A stretch of 64,000 nucleotides of DNA from Candidatus Saccharimonadota bacterium (GTDB taxonomy: Bacteria > Patescibacteriota > Saccharimonadia > Saccharimonadales > Saccharimonadaceae): NCBI GenBank assembly GCA_024699125.1, contig JAILQE010000004.1, positions 1 through 64,000 on the forward strand, read 5' to 3'. The position numbers were made by a program, and so were the translations under genes. The notes under the pieces are model-generated. The model saw nothing but the letters and a program-made list of their open reading frames with translations. It was not told where the DNA came from and made no database searches. Below, in pieces: positions 15,527-62,692 of this stretch (positions are counted from its first letter, which is position 1; each line of letters opens with the position of its first letter).

Positions 15527-15617
15527 GCGCCTGTGGTGGAATTGGTAGACACGCTACCTTGAGGTGGTAGTGGCCAGATTCACGGCTGTGCTAGTTCGAG
15601 TCTAGTCAGGCGCACCA
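15527..15617 (+). tRNA. tRNA-Leu (GAG anticodon), encoded CCA
   Basis: GCGCCTG...CAGGCGC acceptor stem plus ACCA; anticodon arm CTACC-TTGAGGT-GGTAG; long variable arm; T-loop TTCGAGT; TATAAT 8 nt upstream. Confidence 0.93.
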
Positions 15618-15808
15618 AAAGAACAAAAAACAAGCCTGAATGGCTTATTTTTTTGTTCTTTTGACACATCTTGACTAGGCGCGAACGTTAGTTCGCCCGC
15701 CGTAGGAGCCGAGCAAAAAATGCAAGCTTGCTTGCAATTTTTGGAGTCGACGCCCGGCGGCTTATTTTTGTGAAACAAAAATAAGCGACTAGTCCAGGCG
15801 CACCAAAA
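15607..15808 (+). repeat. Direct repeat of tRNA-Leu 3' end (CAGGCGCACCAAAA) flanking a hairpin-rich segment
   Basis: Identical 14-mers at 15607-15620 and 15795-15808; hairpins between. Confidence 0.8.
15617..15664 (+). terminator. tRNA-Leu terminator-like hairpin
   Basis: AAAAGAACAAAAAACAAGCCTGAATGGCTTATTTTTTTGTTCTTTT. Confidence 0.7.
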
Positions 15809-18960: not shown

Positions 18961-18995
18961 AAAAAAATACCACCGCAAGGTGGTATTTTTTTGTC
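18961..18995 (+). terminator. Intrinsic terminator
   Basis: AAAAAAATACCACCGCAAGGTGGTATTTTTTTG. Confidence 0.85.
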
Positions 18996-28147: not shown

Positions 28148-28908
28148 TGAAAAAATTGCTAGAAAAATTTGAGAACTTCCGGAAAAAGCACCCAGTGCCG
28201 AAAAAACTCCGCACGCCACTCGCAATTTTGTCGCTGCTTTTGTGGGTAGCCATCGCCTCAATCGGCGCGCAATATCTTGTGGGTTACCTCTTGCTTTGGA
28301 CGATCGGCGTCGACAGGTTAGGTATCAATACGTTCAACGTGCTTTACCAAGTCATATCCTACGCCGTGACGCTTTTCCTAGTAATTTACGTGCCATACAA
28401 AATCTCCAAAAAAGGCAAAACCACGCGCGAGGAAATCGGTCTCAAAGGCTGGCCAACCTGGACAGACATCTGGCTTTCACCACTCGGCTTTATTGCCGCA
28501 ACACTAATTGCCATGGCTCTCGCCGCATTATTCAGCCTCTTCCCATGGTTTAATGCTGATGAAGCCCAAAACATCGGCTATACCACCTTGCTTTACGGCA
28601 GCGACCGCATCTTCTCGTTTATCGCCACCGCCATCATCGCGCCAATCGTTGAGGAAATCGTGTTCCGCGGCTGGCTCTACGGCAAAATCCGCTCCCGCCT
28701 CAACATGTTCGCCTCGATCTTTATCGTATCGCTACTATTTGGCCTCGTGCACATGCAATGGAACGTAGGCGTCAACGTGTTTGCTACTTCCATCGTGTTG
28801 TGCGCCCTGCGCGAAATGACCGGCACCATCTATTCCGGCATCCTAGTCCATATCATCAAGAACGGTATAGCGTTTTGTCTAGTTTACATAATGGGCATTG
28901 GCTTATAA
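28147..28908 (+). CDS. CPBP-family intramembrane metalloprotease
   Basis: APIVEEIVFRGWLYGKIRSRL, LFGLVHMQWN, multiple TMs. Confidence 0.88.
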   Translation: MKKLLEKFENFRKKHPVPKKLRTPLAILSLLLWVAIASIGAQYLVGYLLLWTIGVDRLGINTFNVLYQVISYAVTLFLVIYVPYKISKKGKTTREEIGLKGWPTWTDIWLSPLGFIAATLIAMALAALFSLFPWFNADEAQNIGYTTLLYGSDRIFSFIATAIIAPIVEEIVFRGWLYGKIRSRLNMFASIFIVSLLFGLVHMQWNVGVNVFATSIVLCALREMTGTIYSGILVHIIKNGIAFCLVYIMGIGL

Positions 28909-29024
28909 GGGCCGCTAAACCACTATTTTTGAGGACCATAAAGACTTGGCCAGAGCGGCCCGCTCGCCGAAGGCGTAGCGAAGCGCCTGCGTGTCCTCAA
29001 GAATAGTGGTTTAGCGGCCCTTTA
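28905..29024. repeat. Long hairpin with ~31-nt near-perfect arms and GC-rich core (copy A of shared-core family)
   Basis: TAAGGGCCGCTAAACCACTATTTTTGAGGAC pairs with GTCCTCAAGAATAGTGGTTTAGCGGCCCTTTA; core CATAAAGACTTGGCC...GCCTGCGT. Confidence 0.9.
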
Positions 29025-33969: not shown

Positions 33970-35964
33970 GTGGCAAAATTTGAACTAGTTTCTAAGTATA
34001 AACCTACCGGCGACCAGCCGGAGGCTATTAAGGCTCTCACAAAGGGCCTAGAAGCTGGTGTCAAAGAACAAACCTTGCTTGGTGTTACGGGCTCAGGCAA
34101 AACCTTCACCATGGCCAATATTATTAAGAATATCGGCAAACCAACTTTAGTTCTGGCGCACAACAAAACCTTGGCCGCCCAGCTTTATTCCGAGTTTCGT
34201 GAATTCTTTCCAAAAAACGAAGTTCACTACTTTGTGAGCTATTTTGATTACTACCAGCCAGAAGCCTACATTGCTTCAACCGATACCTACATCGAAAAGG
34301 ATTCCGCCATCAATGACGAAATCGACCGCTTGCGCCACGCTGCTACCGAGGCTTTGTTAACTAGGGACGACGTGATTATCGTGGCGTCCGTATCCTGTAT
34401 TTATGGCATTGGTTCACCGGCTCACTACACCGAAATGTCGCTGCCACTTTGGCAAACCGAATCCGGCTGGACTGACGCCGACAAAAAACCGATCACCCAG
34501 GATGCCTTCGTACGCCGCTTAATCAACATGCAATATCACCGCAACGATCTCGCCTTTGAACGCGGTAATTTTCGCGTAATGGGCGACACTATCGACCTTT
34601 TCCCGGCCAACGGTGAATTCGCCTACCGCTTTGAATTTGGTTTTGATACGCTCGAAACCGTAAAGATTGTCGATCCGTTAACATTTGATGTGCGCGAAAC
34701 GCCAAATCATATTCACATCTTCCCAAACACCCACTACGCCACGCCAAAAGAACAGCTAGACAATGCTTTAGTTGCCATTCAAAAAGAATATGAAGAGCGC
34801 GTAAAGTTCTTTGAGAAACATCACAAATACCTCGAAGAACAACGCCTCACTCAGCGCACCAAATACGACCTCGAAATGCTAGAAAGCACCGGTTTTGTAA
34901 AGGGAATTGAAAACTATTCGCGCCACCTAGAAGGCCGCAAAGCTGGCGAGCCACCATATACTTTGCTCGACTTCTTCCCGAAAGACTTCTTACTTATCGT
35001 AGACGAATCGCACATGACCTTGCCACAAGTACGCGGCATGTATAATGGCGACCACGCTAGAAAAGAAGTACTCGTAGAATACGGTTTCCGCTTGCCAAGC
35101 GCGCTCGACAACCGCCCACTCACCTACGGCGAATTCCAAAGTAAAATCAACCAAGCAATTTATGTTTCCGCAACTCCTGGCGATTACGAACTTGAGCATA
35201 CGCCGAAGCCAGTTGAGCAAGTGATTCGCCCAACCGGCCTGCTTGATCCAGAAATTGAAGTTCGCGCCACCGATGGCCAAATTGATAATTTGATAGAAGA
35301 AATCGACCAACGCATCGCCAAAAAGCAACGCGTACTTGTAACCACGCTAACAAAGCGCATGGCCGAAGATTTAACCGACCACTTTAAGGAACGTGGTCTG
35401 AAAGTGGCCTACATTCATTCCGATATCGACACTTTGGAACGTAGCGACATCCTGCGCGACCTCCGCGCTGGCGTCTACGACGTGCTTGTGGGTATCAACC
35501 TACTTCGTGAAGGTCTAGATCTTCCAGAAGTTTCGCTCGTCGCAATTTTGGATGCCGACAAAGAAGGTTTCCTGCGTTCTGAGTCCGCTCTCATCCAAAC
35601 CATTGGCCGTGCCGCCCGCCATGTTGAAGGCAAAGTTATCATGTATGCCGACCACATTACCGAAAGTATGGAGCACGCCATTGAAGAAACCAACCGCCGC
35701 CGCGCCATCCAAAAGGAATATAACTTCGTTCATCACATCACCCCAACTTCCGTCGAGAAGGAAATTAGCATGGGGCTTCGCGCCATCATTCCAGAAAAGA
35801 TGAAGGAAGATAAACTAGACCTCAAGAAAGTTCCACAAGAAGAATTGCCAAAACTTATTAAAGAGCTCACCAGCCAAATGCAACTGGCCGCCGCCAACCT
35901 CGAATTCGAGAAGGCCGCCACCATCCGTGACGAAATCGAAAAGATTAAAGAATTCCTAAAATAA
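33970..35964 (+). CDS. uvrB: Excinuclease ABC subunit B (GTG start)
   Basis: LLGVTGSGKTFTMANII, VHYFVSYFDYYQPEAYI, INLLREGLDLPEVSLVAILDADKEGFLRSE. Confidence 0.97.
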   Translation: MAKFELVSKYKPTGDQPEAIKALTKGLEAGVKEQTLLGVTGSGKTFTMANIIKNIGKPTLVLAHNKTLAAQLYSEFREFFPKNEVHYFVSYFDYYQPEAYIASTDTYIEKDSAINDEIDRLRHAATEALLTRDDVIIVASVSCIYGIGSPAHYTEMSLPLWQTESGWTDADKKPITQDAFVRRLINMQYHRNDLAFERGNFRVMGDTIDLFPANGEFAYRFEFGFDTLETVKIVDPLTFDVRETPNHIHIFPNTHYATPKEQLDNALVAIQKEYEERVKFFEKHHKYLEEQRLTQRTKYDLEMLESTGFVKGIENYSRHLEGRKAGEPPYTLLDFFPKDFLLIVDESHMTLPQVRGMYNGDHARKEVLVEYGFRLPSALDNRPLTYGEFQSKINQAIYVSATPGDYELEHTPKPVEQVIRPTGLLDPEIEVRATDGQIDNLIEEIDQRIAKKQRVLVTTLTKRMAEDLTDHFKERGLKVAYIHSDIDTLERSDILRDLRAGVYDVLVGINLLREGLDLPEVSLVAILDADKEGFLRSESALIQTIGRAARHVEGKVIMYADHITESMEHAIEETNRRRAIQKEYNFVHHITPTSVEKEISMGLRAIIPEKMKEDKLDLKKVPQEELPKLIKELTSQMQLAAANLEFEKAATIRDEIEKIKEFLK

Positions 35965-38955: not shown

Positions 38956-41629
38956 TCTTCACATTCTTTTCTTTGCCGGTTACCGTATAACCCGTAATCT
39001 CACCGTTAGCTGCGATAGAAATTGCAGAATAATCGGTGCCATCAACTGTTAAAGTATAACCCTTAATTGCCTGGCTACCTTTTACAATCGTGGCATAGAA
39101 TTTGCCACCAGAACTTGAAATAGATACAGCCGGAGCTACGTAATCACAAGTATCCGATACTTCATGATTATAAGGCGCATCAACCTTGAAAGTCTCTTTC
39201 TTAGATACAGGGTCAACCACCTTTGTCACTTCGATTTCAATCTTAAAAGCGGCCGGAGTACATTCAGCGGCAAGCAATTTATTGTACTTGTTAAACGTCT
39301 TGGTTTCCTTAGAAACGCCAGAGTTTTTATCAGCATTGTACCAGCTTGGCCAAATATCAGTGATACCATTTACTGTCAAAGTCTTGATACCGGCTGGAAC
39401 TGCTGGTTGGTCGCCATAGTGCCACTTACCATCTGGTTCGTAGACTTCCTTATGAACACGTTCCATGTAAGTACCAGCTGTCTTAGCTGCAACTTCGTGC
39501 GTACTACTCGCGATGCCAGAACCATCGTGGTTACCGTTCCAAACGAAGGTAGAGATGGCAGTAGAGAAGCTCTCCATCATAGAGTCCTTGGTCACATTGG
39601 AGCTAGCAGTAGTGGTAGTACCAGTTTTAGTACCGGTCCATACGCCAGGTACCACGAAACCCGAACCGTTCCATGGGCGAGCGCCGCGATCGCCTAAGAC
39701 ATTCATGAGAAGGTAGGCAATTTGTGGGTCGATTACTTGGGTGGCTGGAGCATCTTGCCATGATTCGATAATGTCACCAGAAGAGTTTTTAACTTCAAGA
39801 ACATAGGCAATGTCTTTATAGGCGCCGCCACGTACAAGGGAAGCATAGGCGTTGGCGTGCTCAACCATCTTTACGCCACAACCTGAACCAATTGCGATCG
39901 AAAGGCCATAGGTGGCTTCAGTGTCTGCACAATAAGCCTTGTCACCAAGAGCATGAGCAATCTCGAGTGAGTTCCCGATGCCATTAATATATAGAGCTTT
40001 TACAGCTGCAATATTGAGGGAATTACCGAGTGAACGACGAATCGTAATATCACCAGCAAAAGTCCTAGAATAGTTAGCAAGTGAACAAGCGCCTCTATAA
40101 CCAGCACAATAAATCGAGTCAATGTTTTCATCACGAAGAATTGTACCAGGGCCATAGTTAATACCTTCACGTTGCATAAAGAGTGGAGCGTAATCAAGAA
40201 TTGGCTTGATCGTAGAGCCTGGCTCAATTGATGAGTCTACCGTTACGTTTTGCTCACCATAGGTTGGGTTATTGAAATCAATCGAACCGACCATCGCAAT
40301 CACTTGGGCGGTTTCAACATCCAACGAAACGAGAGCGAGGTTATCGCTGCGGTTCATGTAAGTAATACCGGCGCCAACAGCAATTGCGTCTTCAGCGATC
40401 TTTTGAGCACGCGTATCGAGCGTGGTAGTAATTGTCCAACCACCAGCGCGCATCGTTGAGATACCGTATTTTTCCTCGAGCTGTTTGCGCACTTCAAGCA
40501 CAAAATGAGGAGCAATCATATCAGAATATTGGCTAGCTTCTGGTTTAATCGTGTCAAGAATTGGCACTTCCTTAGCCTCATCAGCTTTCTCTTGGCTGAT
40601 GTAGCCCATTTGAGCCATCACGTCGAGAGTTTTGTGTTGACGCTCAAGCAAGGCTTCGTTACCGTAAGTATTGTATGGGTTAAGCACACCTGGGTTGTTT
40701 GGAATTGAAGCAAGAAGCGCAGATTCAGCCAAAGTCAAATCTTTAGCAGACTTGCCAAAGTAGGTTTGTGCAGCAGACTCTACACCGTTACGGCGACCAC
40801 CATAAGGCGACTGGTTGAGATACATAGTAATAATCTGCTCTTTATCATACATACGCTCAAGCTCAATTGAAAGAATCAACTCTTTGATTTTACGAGCAAG
40901 ACCACCACGGCTTTCACTTGCGGCTTCATCCGAGAAGTAAACCTGCTTGATAAGCTGCTGAGTCAGTGTAGAACCGCCTTGCACGCCGCTACCAGAAAGA
41001 GTAGAAAAGGTTGCACGGATTAAGGCGAGAAAATCAACGCCAGCGTGATTATAGAAGTTTCTATCCTCGATAGCCACAGTTGCCCAGCGCATATAATCGC
41101 TAATCTCGGAACCGTCAACCACGAGACGATAATCTTCGCTACCAGTATCTTTCCAGAGCACAACACCGTTGCGGTCGAGATAAGTGTTAACTGTTTCAGA
41201 AATAGTCATCTCATCGAGGCGGATTTCATCAAGATCTTTCTTGTAATACAAGAATAGACCACCGATAAAGATAACGAGAAGTAGAAAACAAGCCGCAAAA
41301 AACTTTAGAATGGCTTTTTGGCCACGCCAAGAAAACCACCATTTAAATACACGTTTTGGATGGAGTCTAGCAAAGAAGCGTTTGACCGGTTCTTTAGGGA
41401 GAGATGCCAAATCCTCGGCCTTGCGACGTGCCTCGGCGTCTTTCTTTGCTTTGTGTCTATAAACTAGACTAGAATAAAGACCTTTTTTGCTCCCGGTTTT
41501 CTTCTCTTTAGGAGCGCTTGTCTTTTTCTCAGCTTTAACCTTGCTCAGGCTAAGCTTGTCCTGCTTTTTATCAGTTTTTTTAGCGTCTTTTTTAGACGGC
41601 AAAATAACTTCCGACTTTTTTCTACTCAT
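38810..41629 (-). CDS. Class A penicillin-binding protein (PBP1A-type transglycosylase/transpeptidase)
   Basis: Single TM, AIEDRNFYNHAGVDFLALIRA, QGGSTLTQQLIKQ, SSIEPGSTIKPILDYAP (SxxK), KTGTTT; charged C-terminal tail. Confidence 0.95.
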   Translation of the reverse strand: MSRKKSEVILPSKKDAKKTDKKQDKLSLSKVKAEKKTSAPKEKKTGSKKGLYSSLVYRHKAKKDAEARRKAEDLASLPKEPVKRFFARLHPKRVFKWWFSWRGQKAILKFFAACFLLLVIFIGGLFLYYKKDLDEIRLDEMTISETVNTYLDRNGVVLWKDTGSEDYRLVVDGSEISDYMRWATVAIEDRNFYNHAGVDFLALIRATFSTLSGSGVQGGSTLTQQLIKQVYFSDEAASESRGGLARKIKELILSIELERMYDKEQIITMYLNQSPYGGRRNGVESAAQTYFGKSAKDLTLAESALLASIPNNPGVLNPYNTYGNEALLERQHKTLDVMAQMGYISQEKADEAKEVPILDTIKPEASQYSDMIAPHFVLEVRKQLEEKYGISTMRAGGWTITTTLDTRAQKIAEDAIAVGAGITYMNRSDNLALVSLDVETAQVIAMVGSIDFNNPTYGEQNVTVDSSIEPGSTIKPILDYAPLFMQREGINYGPGTILRDENIDSIYCAGYRGACSLANYSRTFAGDITIRRSLGNSLNIAAVKALYINGIGNSLEIAHALGDKAYCADTEATYGLSIAIGSGCGVKMVEHANAYASLVRGGAYKDIAYVLEVKNSSGDIIESWQDAPATQVIDPQIAYLLMNVLGDRGARPWNGSGFVVPGVWTGTKTGTTTTASSNVTKDSMMESFSTAISTFVWNGNHDGSGIASSTHEVAAKTAGTYMERVHKEVYEPDGKWHYGDQPAVPAGIKTLTVNGITDIWPSWYNADKNSGVSKETKTFNKYNKLLAAECTPAAFKIEIEVTKVVDPVSKKETFKVDAPYNHEVSDTCDYVAPAVSISSSGGKFYATIVKGSQAIKGYTLTVDGTDYSAISIAANGEITGYTVTGKEKNVKITISDEYGYVADSSMTLTPVEEPEKPTEPEKSSESEDKDEQKDEKKTE

Positions 41630-42591: not shown

Positions 42592-43543
42592 TTCCTATAA
42601 ACCGGATAAAAAAGTCACGAGAGCCACTAGCTCTCGTGGCTTTTTAAAAGCCAATAACAAAAAGAAAACTACCTCAAAAAAATTCGACATTAAAAGTGAC
42701 CCACGCGTTATCATGCGCGGCATCATCTATACCTTGACCTCCGTAGTATTAATCTTTTGTATTTGTTTTTCTGCCTACAACATTATCAAATGGCGTGCCG
42801 AGAACGAACTAGCAGACGAACAAATCCGCGAGATTCAAGCCGAAACCGTAATCGTAGAGGTGGAACCCGAGCCAGAGCCAGAACCAAAGCCGGAACCAAT
42901 TGTTAAACCAAAAGAAGGAGCCGATGTAGCAATTTCCAGTACTGATCCATATTGGGAATTATCAAAAATCCCACTAATTAGCGTTGATTTAACCAGTTCA
43001 ATCGCCAAAAACCAAGACGTCGCCGGTTGGGTTCAAGTACCAGGAACCAATATTAATTACCCATTCGTACATACCAACAATAATGAGTACTATTTGCGTC
43101 ACTCTTTGAATCATACCTGGAATTCTGCTGGCTGGGTTTTTCTTGATGCCAGCAACAACACCAACCTCACAGACCAAAACCAAATTCTTTATGCACATGG
43201 TAGGCTCGATGGCTCAATGTTTGGCTCACTCGTGAATGTACTGTCAAAAAACTGGCAGGAAAAGACCGAAAATCATGTCGTCAAAATCTCCACTCGCGAT
43301 TCAAACTCACTTTGGCAAGTGTTTAGCGTTTACCGCATCCCAGTAACTAGCGATTACCTTGTCACGCATTTCGACAGCGACGAAGCCTTTGACGAATTCT
43401 TGCAAAAGATCAGCGCCCGCAGCATTTACGACTTTCAAACTAATGTTCACGCCAGCGACAAAGTCATTACACTCTCCACGTGTATAGGAACTACTGAGCG
43501 CGCCGTGTTGCACGCCAAACTCATTAAAATCGCCCAAAAATAA
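42578..43543 (+). CDS. Sortase, class B-like (start uncertain)
   Basis: TM followed by VAGWVQVPGTNINYPFVHTNNNEYYLRHS, ILYAHGRLDGSMFGSL (His), ITLSTCIGTTERAVLHAKL (Cys, Arg); track start is TTG, first ATG downstream is near 42713. Confidence 0.82.
   Translation: MLSINSYKPDKKVTRATSSRGFLKANNKKKTTSKKFDIKSDPRVIMRGIIYTLTSVVLIFCICFSAYNIIKWRAENELADEQIREIQAETVIVEVEPEPEPEPKPEPIVKPKEGADVAISSTDPYWELSKIPLISVDLTSSIAKNQDVAGWVQVPGTNINYPFVHTNNNEYYLRHSLNHTWNSAGWVFLDASNNTNLTDQNQILYAHGRLDGSMFGSLVNVLSKNWQEKTENHVVKISTRDSNSLWQVFSVYRIPVTSDYLVTHFDSDEAFDEFLQKISARSIYDFQTNVHASDKVITLSTCIGTTERAVLHAKLIKIAQK
42608..42646. terminator. Terminator-like hairpin between surface protein and sortase
   Basis: AAAAAAGTCACGAGAGCCACTAGCTCTCGTGGCTTTTT. 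Confidence 0.8.
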
Positions 43544-51368: not shown

Positions 51369-51399
51369 CAAAAATCCGGCTAGATTAGCCGGATTTTTG
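51369..51399 (+). terminator. Intrinsic terminator after fusA
   Basis: AAAATCCGGCTAGATTAGCCGGATTTTTGG. Confidence 0.85.
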
Positions 51400-60554: not shown

Positions 60555-61525
60555 ACTGGGCTAAAACTTGCGCCAAATATCCTGAAGCAAACTTTTATCA
60601 ATCGCCAAACTGGGCCAAAGTCAACGAACTTATCGGCGACAAAACCATCACGAAAGACCTCATGAATGACGGCCTAGTACTCGCCATCGTTAGAAACGCC
60701 AAACGCGGTCGCTATCTTGAAATCCCTTGCGGCCCAATCATCGACTGGAAAAATAAAGCCGCCATCAAAGAGGCCTTCGCCGAAATCACCAAGATCGCCA
60801 AAGAAAACCGCTGCGTTTTTGTGCGCCTCCGTCCACAACTCCTCGCCACCCCAGAGAATTTGAAACTTCTAAAGTCTCTCGACCTTCGCCCATCTCCAAT
60901 GCATCTGGCTGCTGAACACACTGTTATTATTGATCTTACAAAAACCGAAGAAGAACTCCTCGCCGACATGCGCCGCCAAACCCGCTACGAAGTAAAACAG
61001 GCCGCCAAGCAGGGAATCATACTCGAAAAAAGTAACTCCGAAGAATTGTTCAAAGAATTCCACGCCGTGCAGCTCGAAACCGCCAAGCGCAAAGGCTTTA
61101 TTCCGCCAAAACTCGAAAACCTACTTGCCGAACGCGAAGCCTTTGGCGACGACGCTTTGATTTATGTCGCTTATAGCGCTGAACACGAACCAATCGCCTA
61201 CGGCCTCATCTTAAAAGACCTCAACGAGGCCGAATATTACGAAGCCGCATCAACCGATCTCAACCGCCGTCTGCCTGGTGCCTACGCCTTGATTTGGGAA
61301 GTCGTAAAAGATCTTAAAAAGACCGACATCAAGCGCTTCAACCTTTACGGCATCGCCCCACCAAACCAGCCACACCACCGTTATGCTGGTGTTACTACCT
61401 TTAAGACCGGCTTTACCAGCGAAAAAACCGAATACGTTCCGGCTCACGACCTCGTGATTTCCAAAGTTAAATATCTAAAAAACCTGGTGGTCGAAACCGC
61501 CCGCCGCAAAAAGAGGCACCTATGA
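60551..61525 (+). CDS. FemAB-family (peptidoglycan bridge) aminoacyltransferase 1
   Basis: FYQSPNWAKVNELIG, RGRYLEIPCGPIIDW, MRRQTRYEVKQAAKQGIILEKS, YGIAPPNQPHHRYAGVTTFKTGF. Confidence 0.88.
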   Translation: MNWAKTCAKYPEANFYQSPNWAKVNELIGDKTITKDLMNDGLVLAIVRNAKRGRYLEIPCGPIIDWKNKAAIKEAFAEITKIAKENRCVFVRLRPQLLATPENLKLLKSLDLRPSPMHLAAEHTVIIDLTKTEEELLADMRRQTRYEVKQAAKQGIILEKSNSEELFKEFHAVQLETAKRKGFIPPKLENLLAEREAFGDDALIYVAYSAEHEPIAYGLILKDLNEAEYYEAASTDLNRRLPGAYALIWEVVKDLKKTDIKRFNLYGIAPPNQPHHRYAGVTTFKTGFTSEKTEYVPAHDLVISKVKYLKNLVVETARRKKRHL

Positions 61526-62541
61526 ACATAATTGACGCAACCGATCGCAAAACTTGGGATAATTTTATCACCTCGCACGAAGAGTCTAACTTTTTGCAAT
61601 CCTGGGACTTTTACGAATTTCATATCGCCCGCGGTAAAAAAGTTGTTCGCCGCCTCGCCGTCGATGATGAGGGCAAAATCCTCGGTGCCTACGCCGGCGT
61701 AGTCGAAACCGCCAAACGCGGCCGCTATTTGGCCATTGCCGGTGGCCCAATTTTGGACTGGACGAACAAAAAACTTGTTCAAGCAATTTTTGGCGATATC
61801 AAAAAAGCTGGGCAAAATGAAAAATGTGTATTCGTACGTGTCCGCCCACAACTCGAACTCTCTGATAAATCATTGAAACTCATGCAAAGCCTCGGCCTTA
61901 AGAAGGCCCCAATGTATCTCTCGGTAGAATACGCCGGTATCCTGGATATCTCTAAATCCGAAGAAGAGATTTTGGCTGGCGCCTCACAAGGTTTCCGTCG
62001 CAAACTCCGCAAAGCCGAAAAAGCCGGCATCACCGTCGAAACTTCCACCGATCCAAAAATCGTCAAAACCTTCTACGAAATCGAAGTTAAGCACGCCAAG
62101 CGCCAGAAGTTTGTCGCCTTCTCAGAAAGCTTCCTCACCAAACAATTTACCGCTTTTGCCGAAAACGGCGAAGCCATTATGTATACCGCCAAACTAGGGA
62201 AGGACATCCTGGCCCAGAACTTCATGATCTTCTACGGCGACGAAGCCTCCTATCACTACGGCACTTCTACTGATCTTGGTACCAAGTATTCCGCCGCTCC
62301 ACTTTTGCACTTAAAGGCCATGGAAGAGGCCAGAAACCGCGGCATCAAGCGCTACAACTTGTGGGGAATTGTCGGCACCGACGAAACCAAACACCGTTTC
62401 TACGGCGTCTCCGAATTCAAACGTAGCTTCGGCTGTACAGAACTAAAATACACCCCTGCCCACGACCTTATATTAAATAAACCAAAATACCTCTTGAATA
62501 AAACGGTTGAGGATATTAGAAAACATCTTCGCCACGTATAG
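61522..62541 (+). CDS. FemAB-family aminoacyltransferase 2
   Basis: NFLQSWDFYEFHIARG, RGRYLAIAGGPILDW, FRRKLRKAEKAGITVETS, YNLWGIVGTDETKHRFYGVSEFKRSFG. Confidence 0.88.
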   Translation: MNIIDATDRKTWDNFITSHEESNFLQSWDFYEFHIARGKKVVRRLAVDDEGKILGAYAGVVETAKRGRYLAIAGGPILDWTNKKLVQAIFGDIKKAGQNEKCVFVRVRPQLELSDKSLKLMQSLGLKKAPMYLSVEYAGILDISKSEEEILAGASQGFRRKLRKAEKAGITVETSTDPKIVKTFYEIEVKHAKRQKFVAFSESFLTKQFTAFAENGEAIMYTAKLGKDILAQNFMIFYGDEASYHYGTSTDLGTKYSAAPLLHLKAMEEARNRGIKRYNLWGIVGTDETKHRFYGVSEFKRSFGCTELKYTPAHDLILNKPKYLLNKTVEDIRKHLRHV

Positions 62542-62634
62542 AAGGGAAACCATCAAATAGTTTTTTCTCGGACCATAAGCTTGGGCGAGCGCCCTGGAGC
62601 GTGTCCGAGAAAAAAGCTATTTGATGGTCTCTTT
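62541..62634. repeat. Long hairpin with shared core (copy B), also terminator-like
   Basis: GGGAAACCATCAAATAGTTTTTTCTCGGAC pairs with GTCCGAGAAAAAAGCTATTTGATGGTCTC; core CATAAGCTTGGGCGAGCGCCCTGGAGCGT. Confidence 0.9.
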
Positions 62635-62692
62635 TTTATATGTGGTTAAAATGTGTTATAATAACCTTAAGCATTTTAATCAAGGAAATATT

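Follow-up and report, generated by a model that had tools for sequence, protein, structure and literature searches.

Directly behind the stop codon of a FemAB-family gene stands an unusually long hairpin, hairpin B, whose core recurs in a second hairpin, hairpin A, some distance upstream. Both lie in the window, by which we mean the whole 64,000-nt stretch of Saccharibacteria DNA analysed here. What kind of sequence keeps its centre while its arms differ, and is its position behind a gene a sign of transcription termination or of something else? The features on which the argument draws first are the following.

62546..62631, + strand: hairpin B, the palindromic element in full (B type, with a GCTTGG core), delimited by the covariance model R2
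62550..62569, + strand: left arm of hairpin B, locus-specific, pairing with the right arm
62570..62606, + strand: conserved tip of hairpin B, GGACCATAAGCTTGGGCGAGCGCCCTGGAGCGTGTCC, placed by the core consensus of 58 copies
62607..62631, + strand: right arm of hairpin B, with one bulged base (the bulge is on the other arm in L128, the CAMZAW01 ortholog)
62631..62636, + strand: T-run directly 3' of the stem, a possible terminator tail seen in the sequence
61522..62541, + strand: upstream gene, FemAB family (Pfam PF02388, E 5e-38), with hairpin B directly behind its stop codon
62693..63316, + strand: downstream gene, DUF308 (Pfam PF03729, E 6.7e-8)
62635-62662: promoter-like site between hairpin B and the DUF308 gene, predicted in the sequence
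28907..29022, + strand: hairpin A, the second window copy (A type, AGACTTGG core, longer tip), found by R2, pattern and fold
28933..28996, + strand: core of hairpin A, from the pattern match and the shuffling comparison

Two hairpins with one core

The letters of hairpin B given in the preliminary description proved exact throughout (left arm 62550-62573, loop 62574-62602, right arm 62603-62627), and the hairpin does begin at the stop of the upstream gene (TAG, 62539-62541) and end in a T-run, with six T's at about 62631-62636, just past the stem. Folded as RNA in a stretch of 100 nt, it reaches -51.6 kcal/mol (z -8.5), and 0 of 200 shuffled sequences were as stable; for hairpin A the corresponding values are -76.8 kcal/mol and z -9.9. 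No other inverted repeat of the window comes near these two in length. Hairpin A, which lay outside the training set, matched R2 with 46.7 bits (E 4.8e-10), and the 86.1 bits of hairpin B in the same window search (E 1.2e-20) follow by construction, because B is among the 58 sequences in the model. An Rfam search of the window returned no family above its gathering score for the hairpins, the sole match being a tRNA, and a simple terminator scan, which permits loops of 3-8 bases only, did not call hairpin B. Other strong hairpins in the window, at 15616-15663, 18961-18992, 42609-42645 and 51369-51399, are without the core and resemble ordinary terminators or palindromes that arose by chance.

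It had been proposed that A and B share a core, a claim that would fall if the likeness lay within chance expectation under shuffling. We ran this comparison and obtained a score of 37.6 for the shared core as against 12.1 ± 4.1 after dinucleotide shuffling, a value that none of 2000 shuffles reached; when the closing 4 bp were fixed and the loop alone was shuffled, 14 of 2000 did. The likeness is therefore not due to chance, which is ruled out by the shuffling together with the recurrence of the core across the genus. The arms of A and B are mutually unrelated, as had also been claimed, with 467 of 2000 shuffles scoring as well, and within the window's genome the pattern GGACCATAAN{18,48}GCGTGTCC matches A and B and nothing else.

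A dispersed family that enters protein-coding genes

Hairpin B belongs to a family of dispersed palindromic elements in Saccharibacteria that seems not to have been described before. Its assignment to a family of hairpins with a shared core and different arms stands, the family being far larger than two. An element measures about 65-110 nt and consists of a conserved tip of ~37 nt (GGACCATAAGCTTGGsCGArCGsCCTTGAGyGTGTCC) and two complementary arms of ~13-28 bp. We tabulated 83 distinct copies, 81 of which have complementary arms at the chosen threshold, and built R2 from 58 of the copies; all genomes compared are metagenome-assembled. At E<=1e-4 the model returned 432 candidate matches, the weak ones among which may include unrelated hairpins, in 63 of 99 genomes of the genus and up to 29 in a single genome. 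The richest were G239 (29 copies), G275 (20), G062 (20) and G263 (19), and the genome of the window holds seven. At E<=1e-8 matches occurred in 4 of the 61 genera of the taxonomic family. The pattern GGACCATAAN{1,6}TTGG, present mostly as GGACCATAAGCTTGG or GGACCATAAAGACTTGG, was found in 31 of the 99 genus genomes, as against a handful of matches for the reversed control pattern. When the pattern GGACCATAAGCTTGGSCGARCGSCC was sought in 84,980 species genomes, all 62 exact matches fell in Candidatus Saccharibacteria, to which the family is thus confined as far as tested; where the matching assemblies carried a source in their titles, it was the rumen or gut of goat, sheep, cattle, yak, buffalo or deer. 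Short pattern matches from outside the genus (L003-L006, L012-L014), and a further one within it (L011), were not counted as family members: those that were folded gave no hairpin, and the cores of the remainder are unlike the family. The search of viral contigs for the core gave no match, which speaks against phage as the vehicle.

Two side observations concern the make-up of individual loci. At L144 two copies lie 78 nt apart on the minus strand (at 2678 and 2756) with near-identical arms, possibly a local duplication. A second palindrome family, with a tip around CCCGTNACGACGGGC and CCGTNACGACGGGC-like, occurs at L137, L141 and L170; ValRS, GyrA and a methyltransferase carry it in frame, in part at loops that the present family also occupies.

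Y1 transposases move REP elements, and an element that is small, palindromic, non-autonomous and dispersed could in the same way be a REP/REPIN-like sequence moved by a RAYT (Y1, TnpA_REP) transposase acting on the hairpin. A short Y1_Tnp fragment does occur close to where the window's contig ends (contig 7, 80376-80450), beyond the window itself. However, a profile search for the Y1 transposase (PF01797) across the 99 genus genomes found the domain in three and in none of the copy-rich genomes G239, G275, G062 and G263, and REPs are as a rule extragenic while the present element is often intragenic. The PF01797 distribution disfavours this mode of movement, which we regard as highly improbable. 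With Y1 as the candidate sought in these 99 genomes, no mobilising enzyme was found.

What the preliminary description missed is the main point, namely that the element invades protein-coding genes. The family is dispersed and multi-copy, is present or absent at orthologous sites and has in-frame copies in housekeeping genes. By a simple ORF caller, 31 of 74 classified copies (about 40%) lie within ORFs, 19 in sense and 12 in antisense orientation, and seven further copies were unclear; the intergenic copies are distributed over 18 tandem, 16 convergent and 9 divergent gene pairs. Sense copies are read in one constant frame, (S)EDHKLGRAPLSVSE, containing DHKLGRAPLSVS, and antisense copies mostly read SDTLKAVRPSLWS. 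In conserved proteins the insert amounts to roughly 21-26 residues (for example ...SSSEDHKLGRAPLSVSEED...), and IleRS, LigA, LysRS, UvrB, MetK, Tgt, TsaD and QueA match their NCBIfam models over the full length apart from it. Three further hosts, recognised from the sequence by eye, we take to be GyrA, ValRS and TlyA. Comparison of filled with empty alleles showed a gain of 23 aa in LysRS of G246 (L058) over the allele of L130 (G233), of 25 aa in LigA of G204 over L142, and of 26 aa in MetK of G263 over an allele reading 'GKLELHINP'. Two such loops are empty in the window genome:

32758..32811, + strand: lysS (lysine--tRNA ligase) loop, empty allele; filled in G246 (L058)
34453..34500, + strand: uvrB loop, empty allele; filled in G263 (L072)

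The inserts sit in loops that vary in length in the protein alignments, and several of these loops are occupied in other species by the element turned round or in a different frame (UvrB L163, LysRS L015, QueA L008). Among the loop inserts that do not at first sight resemble the element, some are the same element in other frames (LysRS L015, UvrB L130, QueA L008) and others belong to the second palindrome family (L137, L141, L170). G263 has a single MetK match, in which the frame of the insert is open, and the insert is predicted as an unstructured coil flanked by a helix and a strand, in an AlphaFold model whose overall quality (mean pLDDT 54.9) is too low for the insert to be placed. The same MetK loop holds other things elsewhere. 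In G237 (L095) it contains an AT-rich insert of a different type, with repeated AATTCGTCCGAATT palindromes, and the loop seems to be a general insertion hot spot; in G062 (L087) the allele resembles one arm without the tip and the other arm, and could be a partial deletion or a pre-insertion state.

The placement of the copies bears on the suggestion that hairpin B has been co-opted as a terminator. Its position behind a stop codon and in front of the T's and the promoter-like site agrees with that suggestion, and the ~40% of copies within ORFs do not. A broader form of the idea holds that A and B are ordinary strong intrinsic terminators sharing a tip, which may be bound by a protein, and that the whole family is a selected terminator or RNA-processing element. 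Several observations speak for it: A, B and the copies on contigs 6 and 11 of the window genome start right behind stop codons, B is followed by a T-run with the promoter-like site downstream, tandem and convergent gene pairs outnumber divergent ones among the intergenic copies, and at mismatched arm positions of these copies G-T is favoured over A-C (48:22, p=0.0025). The copies in frame in conserved enzymes speak against it, as termination there would be harmful, and termination is therefore not what the family is. Coding copies, moreover, have no G-T bias (16:20) and still keep complementary arms, and a terminator role leaves the sequence of the tip and its presence or absence at orthologous sites unexplained. 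A pure terminator reading is thus disfavoured by the in-frame copies, and we consider the broader idea unlikely. The G-T excess fits some RNA-level selection, for termination or processing, on intergenic arms and none on coding copies; it is a hint, because the copies are not independent. As judged from sequence context, a secondary terminator role of intergenic copies is possible.

Arms that change together and a tip that turns

The arms differ between copies yet covary, and the orientation of the tip reverses between orthologous sites. The alignment of 58 copies shows almost no variation in the tip (columns 29-57) and has variable arms, whose information content falls to ~0.1 bit at several positions of the outer arms. 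Of the 28 arm pairs, 24 were changed on both sides, and cells with double changes numbered 461 as against 195 ± 11.5 after shuffling. The covariation score of the arms was 0.480, compared with 0.182 ± 0.009 for shuffled arms and at most 0.218 when the arms were slid by 1-3 columns, and Watson-Crick pairing at offsets 6-17 ranged from 0.73 to 0.95 for a copy's own arms and from 0.25 to 0.62 between arms of different copies. Changes of this kind can be followed at single sites: at the site of hairpin B one C-G arm pair is now T-A on both sides in the relative CAMZAW01, and between the arms of hairpin A and L157 12 positions carry double changes and three a single one, whereas other orthologous pairs mostly have few double changes. 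Selection for a hairpin could likewise produce such covariation.

The statement that the arms match only each other holds for A against B and fails for the family at large, since the inner arms share a weak consensus across copies (AAATACCTCTTTTGA/GAAAAAGAGGTATTT), from which it follows that the arms descend from a common source. It fails for B itself as well, whose arms resemble those of the contig 12 copy (L179) in the same genome.

Two intergenic sites were found both filled and empty. The CAMZAW01 copy L155 is absent from contig 6 of the window genome, where the flanks are ~90% identical and ~106 nt are missing, and the contig 13 copy of the window genome is absent in JAFZBJ01 (L156), with flanks of ~91% identity enclosing 14 instead of 145 nt. 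Neither empty site contains either arm; tip and arms therefore arrive, or leave, together. No clear target-site duplication is visible at these two sites, the flanks of which have diverged by ~10%, and part of the 'empty' alleles could be later deletions.

These sites bear on another account of the arms, in which only the ~37-nt tip is mobile and the arms are copied from the flanking DNA at insertion, by fold-back synthesis primed by the tip. Such synthesis would explain why nearly every locus has arms of its own and why these match each other almost perfectly, and the MetK allele of G062, apparently a single arm, might be read in its favour. The empty sites, however, hold neither arm (L155 against the window genome, contig 13 against L156), the net gain of 21-26 aa in genes equals the tip plus both arms, and neither the consensus of the inner arms nor the resemblance of B's arms to the contig 12 copy would be expected. 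Fold-back synthesis is disfavoured by the empty sites, and we judge it very unlikely.

Among nine orthologous comparisons the tip was reversed in four (A/L157, B/L128, L043/L160 and L118/L068, also L136) and had the same orientation in five (L015/L077, L043/L057, L074/L180, L150/L167 and the contig 12 copy). In B/L128 the bulged base sits on the opposite arm, and therefore the inner arms were inverted along with the tip. Separately, the contig 12 copy (G000, 40087-40171; L179/L185), together with ~250 nt of surrounding sequence, is nearly identical to contig 30 of G332 (L230) between flanks of 87-89% identity. The shared stretch appears to include a tRNA gene, and the near-identity suggests a recent recombination or transfer.

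A probable mobile coding palindrome and its known counterparts

We conclude, with a probability of roughly 0.8, that hairpin B is a copy of a non-autonomous mobile palindromic element whose arms change in concert and whose tip inverts after insertion. The element would insert as a whole hairpin, tip and arms together, and insertions would be tolerated where they are harmless, in gaps just 3' of stop codons and in variable protein loops, since the tip is open in one sense frame and in its antisense frames. Extrusion as a hairpin or cruciform may then let one arm be rewritten from the other, through quasipalindrome template switching or arm-arm conversion, and the arms would drift in concert after insertion because each can be restored in this way. 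Recombination between the arms would invert the tip, and intergenic copies may secondarily act as transcription terminators. We infer the arm-correction and inversion mechanism from its end products. Going further, the element might be a self-maintaining coding palindrome in which the arms rewrite each other, the tip flips, the host protein alternates between DHKLGRAPLSVS and DTLKAVRPSLWS inserts and the spread is hairpin-based and RAYT-free. We put this forward tentatively, as a possibility we would still bet against; if it holds, one and the same essential protein would switch between two insert peptides in the course of evolution.

Among known repeats, REP/REPIN-RAYT systems are likewise small, dispersed, non-autonomous palindromes (PMC3116915, PMC2817692, PMC3733652); unlike them, the Saccharibacteria element has copy-rich genomes without a Y1 transposase, and intragenic copies are common. 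MITEs such as Correia/NEMIS, ERIC and RUP (PMC2229807) share a size of about 100 bp, hairpin formation, non-autonomy and, sometimes, ORFs. Typical MITEs, however, have conserved terminal inverted repeats, whereas here the centre is conserved and the ends are least conserved, with ~0.1 bit in the outer arms. The coding palindromes of nematomorph mitochondria, as set out in PMC6649704, resemble the element in being long inverted repeats in functional genes with locus-specific complementary arms, and template switching is proposed for them there; they differ in belonging to animal mitochondria, and the excerpted text describes no shared tip or dispersed family.

Closest to our family among known kinds are the protein-coding palindromic elements of Rickettsia and Wolbachia. 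PMC2229807 and PMC3767692 describe such elements in these two genera and report them in Methanocaldococcus jannaschii; the WPE and M. jannaschii repeats thus resemble ours as protein-coding palindromic repeats of prokaryotes, in other organisms. The Rickettsia elements (RPE; Ogata et al. 2000, 2002) are, according to these two papers, small palindromes found both between genes and in frame, tolerated as peptide inserts and often carried by orthologs at the same locus. The Saccharibacteria family is of this general kind: palindromic, multi-copy and dispersed, with intergenic and in-frame copies and empty orthologs. We know of no transposase for either. The two differ in that every exact core match of our family lies in Saccharibacteria, outside the Rickettsiales and in another phylum, and no sequence relation was noted, without a formal comparison. 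RPEs are 100-150 bp long and, according to PMC6649704, lose the identity of their repeats over time, while the Saccharibacteria arms drift in concert and stay complementary. Furthermore, the conserved part of the Saccharibacteria element is a short central tip, which inverts at orthologous sites.

This is, to our knowledge, the first family of protein-coding palindromic elements in Saccharibacteria; a search of open-licence papers for palindromic repeats in Saccharibacteria or Patescibacteria gave nothing relevant, which is weak evidence of novelty. In practical terms, the inserts in LigA, UvrB, MetK and tRNA synthetases of Saccharibacteria MAGs should be annotated as mobile DNA and not as new domains. 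With hundreds of copies, filled and empty alleles and orthologs at many stages of divergence, both the movement of the element and the upkeep of its arms are testable by comparative genomics. Protein-coding palindromes were earlier presented as something peculiar to Rickettsia and Wolbachia. That a lineage unrelated to these, yet likewise reduced and dependent on hosts, has such a family in abundance suggests that coding palindromes recur among reduced genomes and are no rickettsial oddity.
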